Source of the DNA: Clostridiales bacterium CHKCI006
Lineage (GTDB): Bacteria > Bacillota_I > Bacilli_A > Erysipelotrichales > Coprobacillaceae
Assembly (NCBI GenBank): GCA_900018345.1
Contig: FCNA01000036.1
Span: 1-42,573, forward strand
Direction: 5' to 3'
Length of the DNA stretch: 42,573 nt
This document shows, piece after piece, positions 8,328-24,345 of this stretch. The position numbers and the translations under genes are program-made. Under the pieces are notes generated by a model. The model ran no database searches and was not told the origin of the DNA. It was given only the letters and a program-made list of their open reading frames with translations. The first letter of the stretch is position 1, and each line of letters opens with the position of its first letter.

Positions 8328-8843
8328 TTAATCCAGGGTCAATGAAGGTGCCGTATATGTACGACCGGCTAATTCCTGATCGAGCATATATAAGCTTTTT
8401 GGATCATTGCCAAACAGATCGTATTTCGTAATCATATCATGTGCATTCTTTTCTTCTTCGCCCTGTTCTTTGACAAACCAGTCTAAGAACTGCATGGTTC
8501 TAAAATCTTTGATATCATAAGCGGCACCATAGATGGTGTGGATCAGGCTTGTGACATATTCTTCATGTTCTAAACCATAGATGAGTGGATCTTTGGCACT
8601 GTGGTAGGTCTTGTCCGGTTTAGCGATGGCCTCAAGCGCCACTTTTTCACTGTTATTTTGCAGGTACTGTAAAAATAACAGGGCATGGTCTCTTTCTTCC
8701 TGGGCCTGGATCATATACCAGTTGGCAAATCCGTCCAATCCGATATCCTTATAGTAATTCGAAAAATCTAAATAGAGGTAAGCGGAATAAAATTCCTTGT
8801 TGATTTGATCGACTAATAATTCAGTCACTTTTGGATCGAGCAT
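8328..8843 (-). CDS. ftnA: Ferritin
   Basis: Bacterial non-haem ferritin of 171 aa, which oxidises Fe2+ and stores it as a mineral core in a 24-subunit shell. The ferroxidase residues are recognisable in NKEFYSAYLYLDFSNY (Glu17 region), QAQEERDHALLF (Glu49/Glu50, His53) and the later VKEQGEEEKNAHDMI (Glu/Gln cluster). ATG 8843 is chosen because AAAGGAG lies 9 bases upstream; the open frame runs further back into nrdD without a ribosome site. It follows nrdD by only 16 bases and shares its operon and terminator. Linking iron storage to the anaerobic reductase and its Fe-S activase is unusual but sensible. Confidence 0.93.
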   Translation of the reverse strand: MLDPKVTELLVDQINKEFYSAYLYLDFSNYYKDIGLDGFANWYMIQAQEERDHALLFLQYLQNNSEKVALEAIAKPDKTYHSAKDPLIYGLEHEEYVTSLIHTIYGAAYDIKDFRTMQFLDWFVKEQGEEEKNAHDMITKYDLFGNDPKSLYMLDQELAGRTYTAPSLTLD

Positions 8844-8859
8844 GTTCAGTCTCCTTTCT

Positions 8860-11244
8860 TTATATATGATGCTGATCGATAAAGGCTTTGATCTCAGAGA
8901 GATTTGCGTATTTTGCAACCTTGCCGTCTTCGACTACGACTAAGGTTGGCGCTTTATAAATTTCATATTCTTTGACTAGTGGCACATTCTTTTCTGCTTC
9001 CATCACGGCATACGGAATGTCCGATTCCTTCAGCATGCGTTTGGCGACACGGCAGTTTGGACAAGTGCTGGTCGTAAAGAGCATGATCTGACTGTTGGAT
9101 GTCTGAGGCTTGACTTCGGTCACGGCTTTGTCCTCTTTAGGCATTTCGGTCTCTTTTTTAGGGGTGAAGCCAGAATGCATCACATCATAGACTTTTCTCT
9201 CTTTAAATTCCTGTGCCTTCCCATCATTCCAGTTTTGAACCGGACGGTAGTAACCGGTAATACGGCTATATACTTCCGTTGTCTTGCCGCATATTGGACA
9301 GGTATACTGTTCACCTGCAAGATAACCATGATCCTTACAAACAGAATAAGTGGGTGAAAGAGTGTAGTAAGGCAGCTCGTAGTTCTCAGCGATCGTTCTG
9401 ACAAGTTTTGCAGCCGCCTGCCAGTTAGGTAATTTCTCACCCAGGAAGGCATGGAAGACCGTACCTGAAGTATACAGCTTCTGCAGCGGATCCTGAATAT
9501 CCAAAGCGGCAAAGATATCATCTGTAAAGCCGACTGGTAAATGGGAACTATTGGTATAGTAAGGGGTGTTGCCGTTTTCGGTGGCTGTGATAATGTCCGG
9601 GAATTTTTCTTTGTCATGCTTAGCAAAACGATAAGCGGTTGATTCGGCCGGCGTTGCCTCTAAATTGTACAGATCTCCATATTCTTCCTGGTAATCAGAT
9701 AAACGTTCACGCATATGATTGAGTACTTCAATGGCAAACTGTTGTGTTTCAGGATGACTCATGTCGGCTCTTAACCATTTCGCATTCAAACCGGCTTCAT
9801 TCATGCCCACCAGTCCGATGGTTGAGAAGTGATTATCGAAGGATCCCAGATAACGTTTGGTATAAGGATAGAGCCCTTCATCCAGCAGCTTGGTAATCAC
9901 GGTTCGTTTCACTTTCAGAGAACGGGCGGAAATATCCATCAGGTAATCCAGACGTTTAAAGAAATCCTTTTTGTCTTTAGCCTGATAGGCAATCTTAGGC
10001 AGGTTGATCGTAACGACACCGACGGAACCAGTGCTTTCACCGCTGCCAAAGTAACCACCGGATTTCTTGCGCAGTTCACGCAGATCTAAACGCAGACGGC
10101 AGCACATGGAACGGACATCGCTAGGCTCCATATCACTATTGATATAGTTCGAGAAATAAGGGGTTCCGTATTTAGAAGTCATCTCAAATAAGAGACGGTT
10201 ATTTTCAGTGTCGGACCAGGCAAAATCCTTGGTGATCGAATAGGTAGGGATCGGATACTGGAATCCGCGGCCGTTGGCATCGCCTTCGATCATGATTTCG
10301 ATAAAGGCCTTGTTGACCATATCCATTTCAGCCTGACAGTCCTTGTATTTAAAATCCATTTCCTTACCGCCGACGATCGCATTCAAATTCGCCAGATCAT
10401 CCGGTACGCGCCAGTCTAAAGTGATGTTCGTGAATGGGGATTGCGTTCCCCAGCGGCTTGGCGTATTGACACCATAAATAAAGGACTCGATGCAACGTTT
10501 GGTTTCTTCATAGCTGAGATGATCGGTCTTGACAAAAGGTGCGAGGTAGGTATCAAAGCTTGAGAAAGCCTGTGCACCGGCCCATTCATTTTGCATGATG
10601 CCTAGAAAATTGACCATCTGATTGCATAATGAGGCTAAATGTTTGGCAGGTTTGGAGGTGATCTTACCTGGAACACCGCCCAGGCCCTCCTGAATCAGCT
10701 GCTTCAATGACCAGCCGGCACAATAGCCTGTCAGCATGGAGAGATCATGAATGTGAATATCGGCATTTCGGTGGGCGGTCGCAATCTCATCATCATAAAT
10801 TTCAGAGAGCCAGTAATTGGCAGTGATCGCTCCGCTGTTGCTGAGGATCAGACCACCCACTGAATAGGTCACGGTTGAGTTTTCTTTGACACGCCAGTCA
10901 TTGACCTTTAAATAATTATCGACGATTTCTTTATAGTTTAAGAGCGCCGATTTGGTGTTGCGGATCTTTTCGCGTTGACGACGATAAAGGATATAGGCTT
11001 TGGCGACATCGCCATATCCGGCTTGGATCAAGGTGTCTTCGACGCTGTCCTGAATATCTTCGACACTGATCATACCATCTTTGATCTTGTCTTCAAAAGC
11101 GCTGGTCACTCTTAAAGCCAGTAAATCAATAATGCTTGGATGATACTCTTTTTGGGTTGCTTCAAAGGCTTTGGTGATGGCTGATGCGATTTTCTGAATA
11201 TTGAATTCGGCAATCGTGCCATCTCTTTTCATCACACGATACAT
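8860..11244 (-). CDS. nrdD: Anaerobic ribonucleoside-triphosphate reductase with fused C-terminal redoxin domain
   Basis: Class III ribonucleotide reductase, which makes dNTPs from NTPs without oxygen using a glycyl radical. Layout of the 794 aa: ATP cone about 1-95 (YRVMKRDGTIAEFNIQKIA); catalytic barrel about 110-640 with radical-relay cysteine in SMCCRLRLD; zinc-site cysteines in CKDHGYL and CPICGK; glycyl-radical motif RITGYYRP (Gly664). After a linker, residues 719-794 form a thioredoxin/glutaredoxin-like domain with CPNC (728-731) and a cis-Pro APTL motif. Ordinary NrdD ends near residue 690. The fused redoxin suggests the thiol-reduced NrdD subclass rather than the formate-using one (inference from family knowledge). 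It sits 16 bases downstream of nrdG in the same operon. Confidence 0.93.
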   Translation of the reverse strand: MYRVMKRDGTIAEFNIQKIASAITKAFEATQKEYHPSIIDLLALRVTSAFEDKIKDGMISVEDIQDSVEDTLIQAGYGDVAKAYILYRRQREKIRNTKSALLNYKEIVDNYLKVNDWRVKENSTVTYSVGGLILSNSGAITANYWLSEIYDDEIATAHRNADIHIHDLSMLTGYCAGWSLKQLIQEGLGGVPGKITSKPAKHLASLCNQMVNFLGIMQNEWAGAQAFSSFDTYLAPFVKTDHLSYEETKRCIESFIYGVNTPSRWGTQSPFTNITLDWRVPDDLANLNAIVGGKEMDFKYKDCQAEMDMVNKAFIEIMIEGDANGRGFQYPIPTYSITKDFAWSDTENNRLLFEMTSKYGTPYFSNYINSDMEPSDVRSMCCRLRLDLRELRKKSGGYFGSGESTGSVGVVTINLPKIAYQAKDKKDFFKRLDYLMDISARSLKVKRTVITKLLDEGLYPYTKRYLGSFDNHFSTIGLVGMNEAGLNAKWLRADMSHPETQQFAIEVLNHMRERLSDYQEEYGDLYNLEATPAESTAYRFAKHDKEKFPDIITATENGNTPYYTNSSHLPVGFTDDIFAALDIQDPLQKLYTSGTVFHAFLGEKLPNWQAAAKLVRTIAENYELPYYTLSPTYSVCKDHGYLAGEQYTCPICGKTTEVYSRITGYYRPVQNWNDGKAQEFKERKVYDVMHSGFTPKKETEMPKEDKAVTEVKPQTSNSQIMLFTTSTCPNCRVAKRMLKESDIPYAVMEAEKNVPLVKEYEIYKAPTLVVVEDGKVAKYANLSEIKAFIDQHHI

Positions 11245-11260: not shown

Positions 11261-11953
11261 CTATAGACCCCTCAGATATGTATGGGGGATCTTTGTCTGT
11301 AGTCTTTTCTGAAAAAGTAAAATATCTTCACGCGTTGGGGCATGCAGACCTTGTTGAATCACAGTATCCCGATCTTCAAAACATTGAAGATAGTAGGGAC
11401 TATCTCCTTCCAACCAGCTGGCAATGGCCTCGATGGCTTCCATATCATGGAATTCGGCGACCAGCGTTGTCCGAAATTCATAAGGGACCACTCCCTGTTT
11501 TAAAAAGGCTATACTTCTTTGAATTGGGGCGAGATCGAGCTCTTTCAGACCGGCTGTCATGGCATAGCGATCCGGGGCATTCTTAATGTCCATCGCGACA
11601 TAATCGACCAGTTTCTGATTGACCAGTTGCTCCAGGCGTTCGGGGTAGCTGCCATTTGTATCCAGCTTGACTAAATAACCGAGCGCTTTGATCTTGCTGA
11701 TCAAAACAGGCAGATCGGCATGCAGCAAAGGCTCTCCACCACTGATGCAGACCCCTTCCAGGATGCCCTGACGTTTTTTTAAGAGTGAAAAAAAATCGTC
11801 CTCGTCAACAGTCGGTGCCTGGGGATCCACATTGACAAGATCACGGTTATGACAGAACGGACAGCTAAAATTACATCCGCCAAGAAAGATCGTACAGGCT
11901 AGATGTTCCGGATAATCCAGTAAGGTCAGTTTTTGTAATCCCATGATCTTCAT
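11261..11953 (-). CDS. nrdG: Anaerobic ribonucleotide reductase activating protein, radical SAM
   Basis: Radical SAM activase (230 aa) that uses a 4Fe-4S cluster and S-adenosylmethionine to put the glycyl radical onto NrdD. The cluster motif is CNFSCPFC (Cys27, Cys31, Cys34), followed by the GGEPLLH SAM-binding segment. The sequence and length fit the NrdG2-like group (opening MGLQKLTLLDYPE) better than the short E. coli NrdG. ATG 11953 was chosen over an upstream ATG at 11998, because GAGG lies 8 bases before it and the family begins at KIMGLQKL. It leads the nrdG-nrdD-ferritin operon. Confidence 0.92.
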   Translation of the reverse strand: MKIMGLQKLTLLDYPEHLACTIFLGGCNFSCPFCHNRDLVNVDPQAPTVDEDDFFSLLKKRQGILEGVCISGGEPLLHADLPVLISKIKALGYLVKLDTNGSYPERLEQLVNQKLVDYVAMDIKNAPDRYAMTAGLKELDLAPIQRSIAFLKQGVVPYEFRTTLVAEFHDMEAIEAIASWLEGDSPYYLQCFEDRDTVIQQGLHAPTREDILLFQKRLQTKIPHTYLRGL

Positions 11954-11977
11954 TGTGCTCGCCTCTTTTCTAAACTC

Positions 11978-12006
11978 ATTATAGGACCGATCTTTCAAAA
12001 CTTCAA
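11978..12006 (-). promoter_or_regulatory. Promoter of the nrdG-nrdD-ferritin operon
   Basis: On the minus strand TTGAAG (12001-12006), exactly 17 bases, then TATAAT (11978-11983), about 25 bases before the nrdG ATG. I saw no clear NrdR box around it. Confidence 0.78.
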
Positions 12007-15091: not shown

Positions 15092-15898
15092 ATGAAGTAT
15101 TTATTTTATCGATTGATTATATATCTGGATACAGCCAGTGAGAATGATACAAACTATAATATTGCCTGGTTTATGGCGAATAACTTTAAACGTGTCGCCA
15201 AGATGGGAATCAGTGAGCTGGCCAAAGCCTGCTTTGTGTCACCGGCAACGATCAGCCGCTTCTGTCGTGCGATCGGATATGAAAATTTTGCACATCTCAA
15301 ACAGGAGTGTACCTTGTATCGTACCAATTCCAATCGTTATACGAGTTTAGCGAACGTGCCTGAAAAAGATATTCTGAAAAATCCTGCCCAGGCCACCAAG
15401 GAATATACCCAAATGGTTGCCAGGACGATTGAAGAGATGAATCAGCATTTGGACTGGCATGAGATCGATGCCTGTTTGAAACTGATTCATGATTCAGACA
15501 ATGTTTCTTTTTTTGGCACCCAGTTTTCTCATAGTGCGGCTCTGCATTTTCAGACAGATCTGATGATGATGGATAAATTTGTGGTTGCACATATGGATGT
15601 CGATCGACAGATAGAATGCGCCAAAGGACTGGATCAGAATGCCGTTGCCATTATTATTTCAGTCAATGGTAACTATGAGCGTACCTGTCCAAAAGCTTTA
15701 AGCTTGATTCGTAAGAGTGGGGCTAAGTCGGTTCTGATCACTTCCAACCCAACGATCGATCTGGTACGTAAGGTCGATCATGTGATTAGGATAGGAGATA
15801 AGGCACATATGAAAATGGGAAAACATACACTGCTGACGGTGATCGAACTGATGGCCTGTCGTTATTTTGCCTTATACTCCCATGAAAACCGCGTTTAA
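15092..15898 (+). CDS. MurR/RpiR family transcriptional regulator
   Basis: A 268-aa regulator with an N-terminal RpiR-type helix-turn-helix (about 25-80: NYNIAWFMANNF, MGISELAKACFVSPATISRF, IGYENFAHLK) and a C-terminal SIS domain (about 110-255) that binds phosphosugars. The SIS core is seen as VSFFGTQFSH and later AIIISVNGNY and SVLITSNPT. Family members sense sugar phosphates and control sugar uptake or catabolism genes. The glycoside hydrolase gene 0.8 kb downstream is a possible target, but a terminator and a nitroreductase gene lie between, so that is only a guess. Confidence 0.87.
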   Translation: MKYLFYRLIIYLDTASENDTNYNIAWFMANNFKRVAKMGISELAKACFVSPATISRFCRAIGYENFAHLKQECTLYRTNSNRYTSLANVPEKDILKNPAQATKEYTQMVARTIEEMNQHLDWHEIDACLKLIHDSDNVSFFGTQFSHSAALHFQTDLMMMDKFVVAHMDVDRQIECAKGLDQNAVAIIISVNGNYERTCPKALSLIRKSGAKSVLITSNPTIDLVRKVDHVIRIGDKAHMKMGKHTLLTVIELMACRYFALYSHENRV

Positions 15899-18953: not shown

Positions 18954-19799
18954 ATGCGAGAAATCAATGTCAATTTGATTACCCAAACGATTGCTTCTTT
19001 ATGCCGCAGCACCTGTACGGATCTGCCTCAGGATGTCTACGATCGGCTCAAGGAAGCTAGAGCGGCTGAAAAAGGCGGCATGGCGCAAAAGACGCTCGAT
19101 ATTTTAATTGAAAATGCGGATATCTCCAAACAAAAAAAGATACCCATCTGTCAGGATACCGGCATGGCCTGCATTTGGCTGAAGGTCGGACAGGAGGTTC
19201 ATTTTGTCGGTGGTGATCTGAATGAAGCCATTCAGCAGGGTGTCCGACAGGGCTATGAGGAAGGGTATTTGCGAAAGTCCATTGTCTATGATCCGGTGTT
19301 TGATCGGGTGAATACCCAAGACAATACGCCGGCTATGATTACCTATGAGATCGTACCCGGAGACAAAATAGAAATAACATTAGCGCCAAAGGGCTTCGGT
19401 TCGGAGAACATGAGTCAGATCAGGATGCTCAAGCCTAGTGATGGTGTCGAAGGAATCAAGTCTTTTGTTTTGAATGTGGTCGAAAGTGCCGGTGCAAATG
19501 CCTGCCCACCGATGGTCATTGGGGTTGGCATCGGTGGTAACTTCGATAAAGTGGCCCTGTTGGCCAAGCAGGCGATGATGGCCCCTATCGAGGCACACCA
19601 TCCTGACAAGCGTTATGCCGATCTGGAAGATGAACTCTTAGAACGCATTAATCAGCTAGGAATCGGTCCGGCTGGTTTTGGCGGGGGCACGACGGCACTG
19701 GCCCTGCATATTGAAACGGCACCGACCCATATTGCCGGCATGCCGGTTGCGGTAGCTATTTGCTGCCACGTATCTAGACATGAGAAGGTGATCCTATGA
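18954..19799 (+). CDS. fumA: Class I fumarate hydratase, alpha subunit
   Basis: N-terminal subunit (281 aa) of the oxygen-sensitive, 4Fe-4S class I fumarase/L(+)-tartrate dehydratase family, which interconverts fumarate and malate. Cysteines that can hold the cluster appear in ICQDTGMACIW (about 63-73), the NACPPMVIGVGIGGNFD stretch, and near the C-terminus (AICCHVSRHEK). The KGFGSENMSQIRML segment is also typical. The two-gene arrangement is characteristic of anaerobes. The stop overlaps the beta subunit start by 4 bases (ATGA), so subunits are made in equal amount. Tartrate dehydratase activity cannot be excluded. Confidence 0.92.
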   Translation: MREINVNLITQTIASLCRSTCTDLPQDVYDRLKEARAAEKGGMAQKTLDILIENADISKQKKIPICQDTGMACIWLKVGQEVHFVGGDLNEAIQQGVRQGYEEGYLRKSIVYDPVFDRVNTQDNTPAMITYEIVPGDKIEITLAPKGFGSENMSQIRMLKPSDGVEGIKSFVLNVVESAGANACPPMVIGVGIGGNFDKVALLAKQAMMAPIEAHHPDKRYADLEDELLERINQLGIGPAGFGGGTTALALHIETAPTHIAGMPVAVAICCHVSRHEKVIL

Positions 19800-20356
19800 T
19801 AAAGAAAATAACGACTCCCTTAACTAGCCAAGTGGCTAGATCCTTGCGCGCGGGCGATCAGGTGCTGATCAGCGGCACGATCTATACGGGTAGAGATGCT
19901 GCCCATCGCCGTTTAGTGGAAATGTTGGATCGTCAGGAACCGCTGCCTTTCGATGTGACGGATGCCATCATTTATTATGTCGGACCGACCCCAACACCGC
20001 CGGGTGCTGTTTTTGGCAGCGGTGGCCCCACCACATCGGGTCGTATGGATGCTTATGCGCCCCGCTTACTGGCGTTAGGCTTACGGGGCATGATCGGCAA
20101 AGGCTATCGCTCTAGTCAGGTGGTGGAAGCCATGAAAGCGAATGATGGGGTTTATTTTGGTGCCATCGGAGGCGCTGGGGCTGTGATCGGTGCTTCCGTG
20201 AAGAAATGTGAGATCATTGCCTTTGAAGATCTTGGACCGGAGGCCATCCGACGTCTGGAAGTGGAAGATTTCCCGGCTGTCGTTGTAATCGATCATGAAG
20301 GCAACAATTTATACGAGCAGGGGCGTCAGGCATACCTGGATTCGCTGGCAAAATAA
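19796..20356 (+). CDS. fumB: Class I fumarate hydratase, beta subunit
   Basis: C-terminal swivelling subunit (186 aa) of the two-part class I fumarase. The conserved GPTPTPPGAVFGSGGPTTSG block (about 62-82) and the MIGKGYRSS segment (about 99-107) contribute to substrate binding. IYTGRDAAHRR is the usual N-terminal motif. It begins in the ATGA overlap with the alpha subunit and is followed at once by a terminator, so the operon is just these two genes. Confidence 0.92.
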   Translation: MIKKITTPLTSQVARSLRAGDQVLISGTIYTGRDAAHRRLVEMLDRQEPLPFDVTDAIIYYVGPTPTPPGAVFGSGGPTTSGRMDAYAPRLLALGLRGMIGKGYRSSQVVEAMKANDGVYFGAIGGAGAVIGASVKKCEIIAFEDLGPEAIRRLEVEDFPAVVVIDHEGNNLYEQGRQAYLDSLAK

Positions 20357-22207: not shown

Positions 22208-22237
22208 TTGCTTGCTTTTATGCGAATTTGTTATAAT
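22208..22237 (+). promoter_or_regulatory. Promoter of the NrdD-like gene
   Basis: TTGCTT (22208-22213), 18 bases, TATAAT (22232-22237), 20 bases before the start codon. Confidence 0.7.
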
Positions 22238-22257
22238 AGATAGCAGAGGTGAGACAA

Positions 22258-24282
22258 GTGGAATATATACGTAAAAGAGATGGCCGACTGATGGCTTTTG
22301 ATAGTGAAAAAATTGCTTCTGCCATCTACAAAGCCTTCAAAGCGACGGACAGTCAGCAGACCCGTCAGGTCGCACGCAAGATTGCCGAGGAGGTCGTGGC
22401 ACGTCTGAATGAGGCGGGATCCAGTCTGCCGACAGTGGAACTGGTTCAGGATATGGTTGAAGAGGTATTGATTGAAAAGGGATATATCCGGGCGGCAAAG
22501 GCTTATATCTTGTATCGGGCAGAGCGCAGCCGCAGCCGTGAGATGAACAGTCGTCTGATGAAGACCTTTGAATCCATTACGTTATCGAAACGTCAGGTGA
22601 CCCATAGCGGCAACGCGAACATCAATGGGGATGGTCCGATGGGGACCATGCTGCGGTTTGGCGCCGAAGCGGCGAAGACCTTTAATGAGATGTATGTCTT
22701 AAAGCCGAGTCACGCGCGCAGTCATCAAAAGGGCGAGATCGATATTCATCATATGGATTTTCTGACACAGACTACCGCCTGCTGTCAAATTGATCTGTCT
22801 GATCTGCTTGTGGGAGGCTTTTCGACTGGGCGAGGGATCTTACGTGAACCTAATCATATTACCGCTTATTCTGTTTTGTGCTGCATCGCCCTGCAGTCCA
22901 ATCAGAATGATCAGGATGATGGACAATCCATCGTCAATTTTGATATGACCATGGCGATGGGAGTCAAGAAAAGCTATCGCCACCATTACTACGATCATGT
23001 TCGACAGGCACTTGTCCTGTTATGTCCGGACTGTGATGCCGATACACTCGTGAATCAAATGCAGCGAGATCCAGCCATCCAGCCTGATCTGGCGCATTCT
23101 GAAATGTCTCAAGCTCACTCTTTTTTACGTGAAAATGGCATCAGCGCAGCACTCACCAAACGCATCCTGGATTATGCTTGCAGTGAAGCAGTTGTTCGAA
23201 CTAATCATGAAACCTATCAGGCTATGGAGGCTCTGATTCATAATTTGAATACGATCTACTCCCGAGCAGGCGCGAGGGTACCTGAATCCACGATTAATTA
23301 TGGTTTAGATACCAGTCTGGAAGGACGGATGGTCATGGAAAATCTGCTGAAGGCGACCATGGCAGGTATCGGTCAGGGGACAAGTGCTCCATTCCCGGTA
23401 CAGATCCTGCGTTTAAAAAAAGGAATCAATCTGGAGCCAGGCGATCCAAATTATGATCTCTATCAATTGGCCCTGCAAGTGATTCAAAAACGGCGGATGC
23501 CCTATCTGGCCTTTGCCGATGCGCCTTATAATCAAGAGGATGTGGCTTATTTTGGAAATGGGATCCGTGTTTATGAAAATGTTCATGATCCTCTACATCA
23601 AGGACCGGCCAAACGGGGGATGTTAGCCTATACTTCTATTAATCTGGTGCGGATTGCCTTACGTGCCAAAGGGGATATGGAATGGTTTTTTGAAGAGCTC
23701 GATCGCAAGCTCGAACTCGTTCAAAAGGAACTGATGGAGCGCTATACCATCCTTTCTCAGATCAAGGCTTATTACTATCCCTTCCTGATGGGACAGCATG
23801 TCTGGTTAGGTTCAGAGAAGCTCGAATCAGCTGATCCGGTCGGTGCTGTGTTGAAGGAAGGTATTCTGGGAATAGGTTTTATTGGTCTTGATCAGTGTCT
23901 GGAGACGATGCAGATGAAAGATGAAGAATCGGCTTATAATTTAGGAATCTCCATCGTTTCACATATGCGTCGTTTTGTCGATTCGCTGAATGCGTCGCAG
24001 GAGTTGAATTATGCGCTGATATCGTCCATGGACAAGGAAGCCTGTGAGCGCCTGTGCGAATTAGACCGCAAGGCTTTTAAACATCATTTTGATCATTATG
24101 ATCCCGGTTTTTGTCTTAGCCATGTGACTGATCCAATCAAAAGGGTTCAGGCAGAAGCACTTTTTCATGAGTTTTGTTCTGGCGGGCACATCAGCTGTCT
24201 GGAACTGGATGCCAAAATGGATCTGGAAGCAGTTGTGAAAGCGCTGAGAGAGACACCGATTGGGCTTTTAAGTTTCAAATAA
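22258..24282 (+). CDS. NrdD-like pseudoenzyme lacking the glycyl-radical domain
   Basis: A 674-aa paralogue of E. coli-type NrdD, clearly a different lineage from the 8860-11244 gene. It keeps an ATP cone (about 1-90, YIRKRDGRLMAFDSEKIASA) and most of the catalytic barrel: TTACCQIDLSDLL, QSNQNDQDDGQSIVNFD, MEALIHNLNTIYSRAGARVP, INYGLDTS, YTSINL, YYPFLMGQ. Two essential elements are missing. The radical cysteine normally in MGCRTRV is replaced in YFGNGIRV (Asn434). The protein also stops at GLLSFK, just before the zinc and glycyl-radical domain, with no remnant of it downstream in any frame. Start GTG 22258 fits AGAGGTGA; GTG 22249 is the alternative. The frame is otherwise intact, so it looks selected rather than decaying. 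A regulatory or nucleotide-binding role is inference. Confidence 0.9.
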   Translation: MEYIRKRDGRLMAFDSEKIASAIYKAFKATDSQQTRQVARKIAEEVVARLNEAGSSLPTVELVQDMVEEVLIEKGYIRAAKAYILYRAERSRSREMNSRLMKTFESITLSKRQVTHSGNANINGDGPMGTMLRFGAEAAKTFNEMYVLKPSHARSHQKGEIDIHHMDFLTQTTACCQIDLSDLLVGGFSTGRGILREPNHITAYSVLCCIALQSNQNDQDDGQSIVNFDMTMAMGVKKSYRHHYYDHVRQALVLLCPDCDADTLVNQMQRDPAIQPDLAHSEMSQAHSFLRENGISAALTKRILDYACSEAVVRTNHETYQAMEALIHNLNTIYSRAGARVPESTINYGLDTSLEGRMVMENLLKATMAGIGQGTSAPFPVQILRLKKGINLEPGDPNYDLYQLALQVIQKRRMPYLAFADAPYNQEDVAYFGNGIRVYENVHDPLHQGPAKRGMLAYTSINLVRIALRAKGDMEWFFEELDRKLELVQKELMERYTILSQIKAYYYPFLMGQHVWLGSEKLESADPVGAVLKEGILGIGFIGLDQCLETMQMKDEESAYNLGISIVSHMRRFVDSLNASQELNYALISSMDKEACERLCELDRKAFKHHFDHYDPGFCLSHVTDPIKRVQAEALFHEFCSGGHISCLELDAKMDLEAVVKALRETPIGLLSFK

Positions 24283-24305
24283 ACGCTTACATTGACTAAA
24301 AAGTG

Positions 24306-24345
24306 GGGATGATCCATCAATAAATATGGATTGTCTCTTTTATTT
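24306..24345 (+). terminator. Probable terminator after the NrdD-like gene
   Basis: GATGATCCAT and ATGGATTGTC form an imperfect stem followed by TCTTTTATTTTA. Confidence 0.55.

Follow-up and report, generated by a model that had tools for sequence, protein, structure and literature searches.

Ribonucleotide reductase is essential, and the ATP cone is its textbook dATP brake. In the stretch of DNA analysed here (the window, 42,573 nucleotides from Clostridiales bacterium CHKCI006), a class III reductase gene, nrdD, encodes a protein that keeps the cone and neither radical residue. What, then, is such a gene kept for, and is it being kept at all? An initial annotation had proposed that the protein cannot reduce ribonucleotides but is probably maintained for another job, nucleotide sensing through the cone being one option; death of the enzyme, its maintenance and the cone as the likely cause are supported by cone retention, by a simulation of neutral drift and by the forms of the protein found in relatives.

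The protein has lost the residues and the domain of catalysis

The 674-aa open frame (Table 1), the change of the radical Cys to Asn434 and the end of the chain ahead of the zinc/glycyl-radical domain, all described in the initial annotation, were confirmed. By score and by fold, the closest known system is the PRK07111 type of NrdD: the best-scoring curated family is NF005497 (PRK07111-type NrdD; 652.9 bits, below the cut-off of 764), TIGR02487 is reached at 328.6 (cut-off 326.35), the Pfam NRDD match spans profile positions 2-502 out of 562, and the closest solved structure is P. copri NrdD (PcNrdD, 8p23), with which a fold search agrees. A predicted model (pLDDT 64, built on 9 sequences) supports an NrdD-like fold only.

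We mapped residues by aligning the dead NrdD to PcNrdD (with a 4-residue tag offset), taking the roles of PcNrdD residues from PMC11226230. N434 aligns with the radical Cys416, and a Cys stands at this position in all 36 homologues aligned with the dead NrdD. The triphosphate motif HxHD, HIHD in PcNrdD (157-160), reads DIHH (H162D, D165H); the ATPAE substrate loop (PcNrdD 577-581, including Glu581) reads SSMDK (589-593); and the formate-site Asn435 is M455. Still present are the two Asn residues of the NxN flap (N119, N121), a second Cys (C175) and the specificity-site Asn (N329). The earlier statement that most barrel motifs are kept is somewhat generous: 61% of the strictly invariant barrel columns are retained, and the columns that bind substrate are among the losses.

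At the C-terminus, intact homologues continue past the end of the dead NrdD with GYGAINHPVDRDPVCGY...CPxCGR...RIRRITGYLVG. This domain (NHPVDRD...CPxCGR...RITGY) was encoded in none of the three frames downstream of the stop; the C-terminal loss is therefore real, and a single frameshift does not account for it. The nrdG activase gene, which adjoins intact orthologues, was absent beside the dead nrdD. Judged from its residues, catalysis by the 674-aa protein is impossible on known chemistry.

The good promoter reported initially was borne out in part: the extended -10 element is perfect and the Shine-Dalgarno good (Table 1), while the consensus promoter scan listed no sigma-70 pair upstream of the gene. 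The -35 candidate found by eye, TTGCTT, is weak (18-nt spacing), and the extended -10 pattern has 6 sites in the window versus 1.9 expected.

Table 1. Features of the window, and glycyl-loop proteins of related genomes
Feature	Position	Strand	Remarks
Apparently active NrdD, PRK08270 type	8860-11244	-	Glutaredoxin-like tail; SRITGY glycyl-radical motif kept; possible partner
Radical-SAM protein	11261-11998	-	PF04055, PF13353; probable activase of the adjoining 8860-11244 NrdD
RpiR-type regulator	15092-15898	+	Conserved upstream neighbour, synteny cluster c1; type judged from sequence
Fumarase alpha subunit	18954-19799	+	Conserved upstream neighbour, PF05681, synteny cluster c3
Fumarase beta subunit	19796-20356	+	Conserved upstream neighbour, PF05683, synteny cluster c4
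Extended -10 element TGTTATAAT	22229-22237	+	Perfect by pattern search
Shine-Dalgarno AGAGGTGA	22245-22252	+	5 nt ahead of the GTG start; read directly
Catalytically dead NrdD	22258-24282	+	674 aa, GTG start, no internal stop; orthologue by position of intact nrdD
ATP cone, aa 3-91	22264-22530	+	Pfam PF03477, E 3e-23, 86 bits
Degenerate NRDD barrel, aa 119-671	22612-24270	+	PF13597, E 4e-108
Asn434 codon AAT replacing the radical Cys	23557-23559	+	YFGNGIRV where homologues have YMGCRTRV
Terminator-like hairpin	24305-24338	+	22 bases past the dead-nrdD stop, in place of the coding sequence for the zinc/glycyl-radical domain
Separate glycyl-loop ORF, L008	2509-2690		Approximate
Separate glycyl-loop ORF, L011	4171-4350		Approximate
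Separate glycyl-loop ORF, L007	10300-10450		Approximate
Separate glycyl-loop ORF, L009	10310-10450		Approximate
Separate glycyl-loop ORF, L006	2940-3090		Approximate
Free glycyl-loop proteins			L086 (G036), L087 and L094 (G034), L088 (G042), L089 (G316)

The gene is a decayed orthologue of an nrdD with an adjoining nrdG

In genus g20 the gene order is rpiR-fumA-fumB-vanY-radicalSAM-nrdD-nrdG, where vanY and radical SAM are what we take these genes to be from their sequences. In the window, rpiR, fumA and fumB lie upstream of the dead nrdD, nrdG is gone, and the next gene downstream encodes a TldD-type protease. On sequence and gene order, the dead NrdD is the decayed positional orthologue of the PRK07111-type NrdD of an NrdD-NrdG pair. 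It was first annotated as an NrdD paralogue, but is not a recent paralogue of the 8860-11244 NrdD, as the two share 23% identity and belong to different subfamilies; pairing with that enzyme is accordingly only one option for the dead copy. A full-range homologue or clear decayed form was found in 25 of the 43 family genomes besides the window's, and most of the family homologues are intact (~767 aa, ~50% identity to the dead NrdD).

The genome encodes two other NrdDs, on C87 (8860-11244) and C112, to which the dead NrdD gives partial matches at 22-31% identity; these carry ATP cones of their own. A ferritin frame (8328-8918) overlaps the end of the 8860-11244 NrdD. None of the 43 family genomes, the window's included, has an NrdR that reaches the TIGR00244 cut-off (controls were positive), nor did these genomes show any further non-enzymatic protein with an ATP cone.

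The ATP cone is conserved while the barrel diverges

All mapped ATP/dATP ligand residues are kept in the cone of the dead NrdD (K6, R7, Q64, Y86, R90, R94), as are 48 of 51 family-invariant cone residues. K6, R7, Y86, R90 and R94 correspond to the PcNrdD ligands Lys7, Arg8, Tyr83, Arg87 and Arg91 (PMC11226230), and Q64 corresponds to Gln79, a ligand in the S. thermophilus enzyme (PMC12662201).

As the comparison covered one species of the window's genus, constraint on the window copy was read from trees, retention and simulation. With invariant residues defined from the 24 family homologues in which the catalytic Cys is present, retention falls from N- to C-terminus: 94% in the cone, then 72, 68 and 57% over barrel residues 101-520 and 40% over 521-674 (chi-square P 4e-10). 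A copy from another genus, G025, gives nearly the same profile (cone 92%, then 67, 62, 60 and 39% along the barrel). In the full-protein tree, the branch of the window copy measures 2.85 and that of G025 3.72, against a median of 0.11, so that the window copy's branch is more than 20 times the median; in the cone-only tree the two branches (0.68 and 0.44) lie within the range of intact lineages (G007 0.85).

Could the gene simply be a pseudogene in decay, the enzyme having become redundant and the cone being merely the last part to go? The genome does have two other NrdDs, the decay is C-terminal-first with nrdG lost, and the gene is missing from several related genera, among them G006, the nearest by RpoB. 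Against this, 674 codons stay open where neutral drift gives many stops: when we simulated neutral drift of an intact orthologue, 8, 0 and 0% of frames were open at 95, 90 and 80% barrel identity, with a mean of 8.6 stops and none of 60 runs open at 80%, and the excess divergence of the window copy is far beyond this simulated drift. By this simulation an open frame at such divergence is not neutral, and the tests together, although indirect for the window copy itself, argue against its simple decay. Moreover, the codon-position G+C of the dead nrdD resembles that of normal genes, the extended -10, Shine-Dalgarno and terminator are all retained, constraint differs strongly by region, and the cone-only forms of relatives show purifying selection (see below). 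Altogether we consider decay unlikely.

Other cone-retaining dead forms occur at the same locus

The G025 copy, 666 aa at the same locus, has SGLNTRV for MGCRTRV and ends at the identical point, and the truncation is therefore not limited to one strain, a case that the initial annotation had raised against maintenance. In genus g9, five species (L042-L045, L051) have cone-only proteins of 172-174 aa at the same locus, 55-59% identical to the window's cone and 68% to an intact g20 cone; their tail is helical and unrelated, and a domain search of it gave no significant family. The g9 cones have dN/dS of 0-0.2 in measurable pairs (the closest pair, with dS 0.26, has dN = 0) and, by these ratios, are under purifying selection. 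A class-wide search (395 genomes; a 168-aa frame in G526 was left out) found cone-plus-tail proteins in g9 only, and no other full-range homologues shorter than 700 aa. At the same locus, G024 encodes a 374-aa protein made of the cone and about 250 unrelated residues; we claim no barrel remnant in it, as profile comparison aligns only the first ~120 residues.

An RpoB tree places the window genome with G006 (99/99), which lacks the gene, and G025 with g9 (88/82), beside intact g20; G024 is unplaced. The tree thus separates the two barrel-bearing dead copies, which speaks against a single origin shared with G025, and it implies that cone-retaining dead forms arose independently at least twice and probably three times. 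The protein tree joins the window copy with G025 only as two long branches, and of the 80 barrel positions that are novel in both copies only 9 have the same residue, versus 4.7 by permutation (P 0.04). On the permutation and the RpoB tree together, the window and G025 copies are largely independent.

These copies also bear on a second alternative, in which the barrel was repurposed for a new ligand or partner, its fast change being adaptive and the cone regulating the new activity. The barrel keeps more than half of its invariant residues up to position 520, the window copy and G025 lose the same positions above chance (odds ratio 4.5, P 7e-11), an NrdD-like fold is predicted to persist, and the allosteric-site Asn (PcNrdD Asn298) is kept together with the NxN flap, all of which would fit a barrel still in use. 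However, the active-site losses differ between the copies (the flap is kept in the window copy and lost in that of G025 only), g9 dispenses with the barrel altogether, and the structure model is of modest confidence. A repurposed barrel thus seems doubtful to us.

An assembly or sequencing artefact is very improbable: the genome is a draft in 164 contigs, but AAT is two base changes away from either Cys codon, a clean stop is followed by the terminator-like hairpin with no remnant of the domain in any frame, family synteny is preserved, and an independent genome (G025) has the same architecture. Least credible of all is the idea that a glycyl-radical spare part makes the reductase active in trans, as YfiD does for pyruvate formate-lyase, a complement considered in the initial annotation, since free NrdD-type glycyl-radical proteins are present in relatives but a search of the window's genome found none, and no spare part restores the Cys, HxHD and ATPAE that are also gone.

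Split class III reductases in relatives

The relatives contain further unusual class III reductases. In the MAGs L006-L009 and L011, an NrdD of the same type keeps the Cys and the Zn site and ends before the glycyl-radical loop, which is found on a separate ORF of about 50-60 aa (FERIRRITGYLVGTVDRFN..KH) between nrdD and nrdG (Table 1). Elsewhere, including in genus g20, free proteins of about 90-100 aa have an NrdD glycyl-radical loop as their last 32-35 residues, and by analogy with YfiD these are putative NrdD spare parts. Two g20 NrdDs, L021 (G039) and L038 (G042), have an intact Cys and Zn site, while the radical Gly has gone from each in a separate event (their ends read RISRITNYLAKK and GLERIPRINLESE); a free putative spare part is present in G042, and none was found in G039. 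Since the only validated spare parts are YfiD and Y06I of PFL (PMC8683613), split or spare-part class III reductases merit separate study.

A maintained pseudoenzyme may act as an ATP/dATP sensor

The reading that we favour, with a probability of roughly 0.55, is that the window protein is a pseudoenzyme that has been maintained and serves as an ATP/dATP sensor. What the analysis shows is a PRK07111-type reductase that no longer has an activase partner, either radical residue, the glycyl-radical domain or the substrate-binding loops, whose ATP cone and cone ligands are retained, whose frame is open and ready for expression, and whose locus has given rise to cone-retaining dead forms repeatedly; constraint on the cone has remained normal. 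Because the allosteric sites are kept and substrate binding and chemistry are lost, the protein is best read as a sensor, and we infer that ATP or dATP still binds to its cone and that selection acts on this sensing. The ATP/dATP ratio would most likely be reported in trans, to the remaining NrdDs or to another protein of the dNTP pool. Contact with the NrdDs could be cone-cone or cone-core, as in PcNrdD tetramers, where dATP causes cones to pair with each other and to dock onto the core of a second dimer (PMC11226230); in this manner, dATP inhibition of an active NrdD could be conferred or adjusted by a dead NrdD or by a cone alone. A direct heterodimer with the 8860-11244 NrdD seems less likely, given their low identity. 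Two points temper the sensor reading: the other NrdDs carry their own cones, which makes the need for an extra sensor less than obvious, and relatives with an intact NrdD are also without NrdR, so its absence alone gives no reason to expect a substitute.

More tentative, and in our view possible without being probable, is the wider proposal that in this NrdR-less family dead class III reductases have repeatedly become dedicated ATP/dATP sensors, with the barrel still present in the window species and G025 and only the cone left in g9. If true, these proteins would be allosteric regulators of a new, reductase-derived class, observed at several different stages of reduction. With catalysis lost and the brake alone kept, they would demonstrate that a cone can work as a signalling module by itself. 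The forms also make up a natural reduction series, which runs from the intact enzyme through loss of the Gly and loss of both Cys and Gly to the cone only, and in which the partner of the cone might be sought.

Comparison with known systems

In the literature that we searched, whose coverage is incomplete, we found no description of a catalytically dead NrdD. Dead reductase subunits with other roles are already known, and it is the repeated occurrence of dead class III enzymes with a preserved cone that is apparently undescribed. The betaherpesvirus R1 proteins (e.g. M45) are catalytically dead class I subunits that do other work (PMC12282084); like the dead NrdD, they are reductase large subunits maintained without catalysis, but they are viral, class I and aimed at host factors, and their retention is not centred on an ATP cone. 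The YfiD/GrcA system with truncated pyruvate formate-lyase (PMC8683613) likewise involves a glycyl radical enzyme minus its glycyl-radical C-terminus; in contrast, the window genome has no spare part and the dead NrdD also lacks the Cys. Closest in build is the PRK07111-type NrdD itself (PcNrdD, 8p23), which the dead copy resembles in domain order, cone ligands, NxN flap and part of the barrel, and from which it differs in having no radical Cys, HxHD, ATPAE, Zn/glycyl-radical domain or adjoining nrdG. Finally, NrdR, the ATP-cone repressor of reductase genes, has a zinc ribbon followed by the cone, whereas in the dead NrdD, where no zinc ribbon or DNA-binding domain was found, an N-terminal cone is followed by a dead barrel; the two are nevertheless alike in being non-enzymatic and in having the ATP cone as their conserved part.
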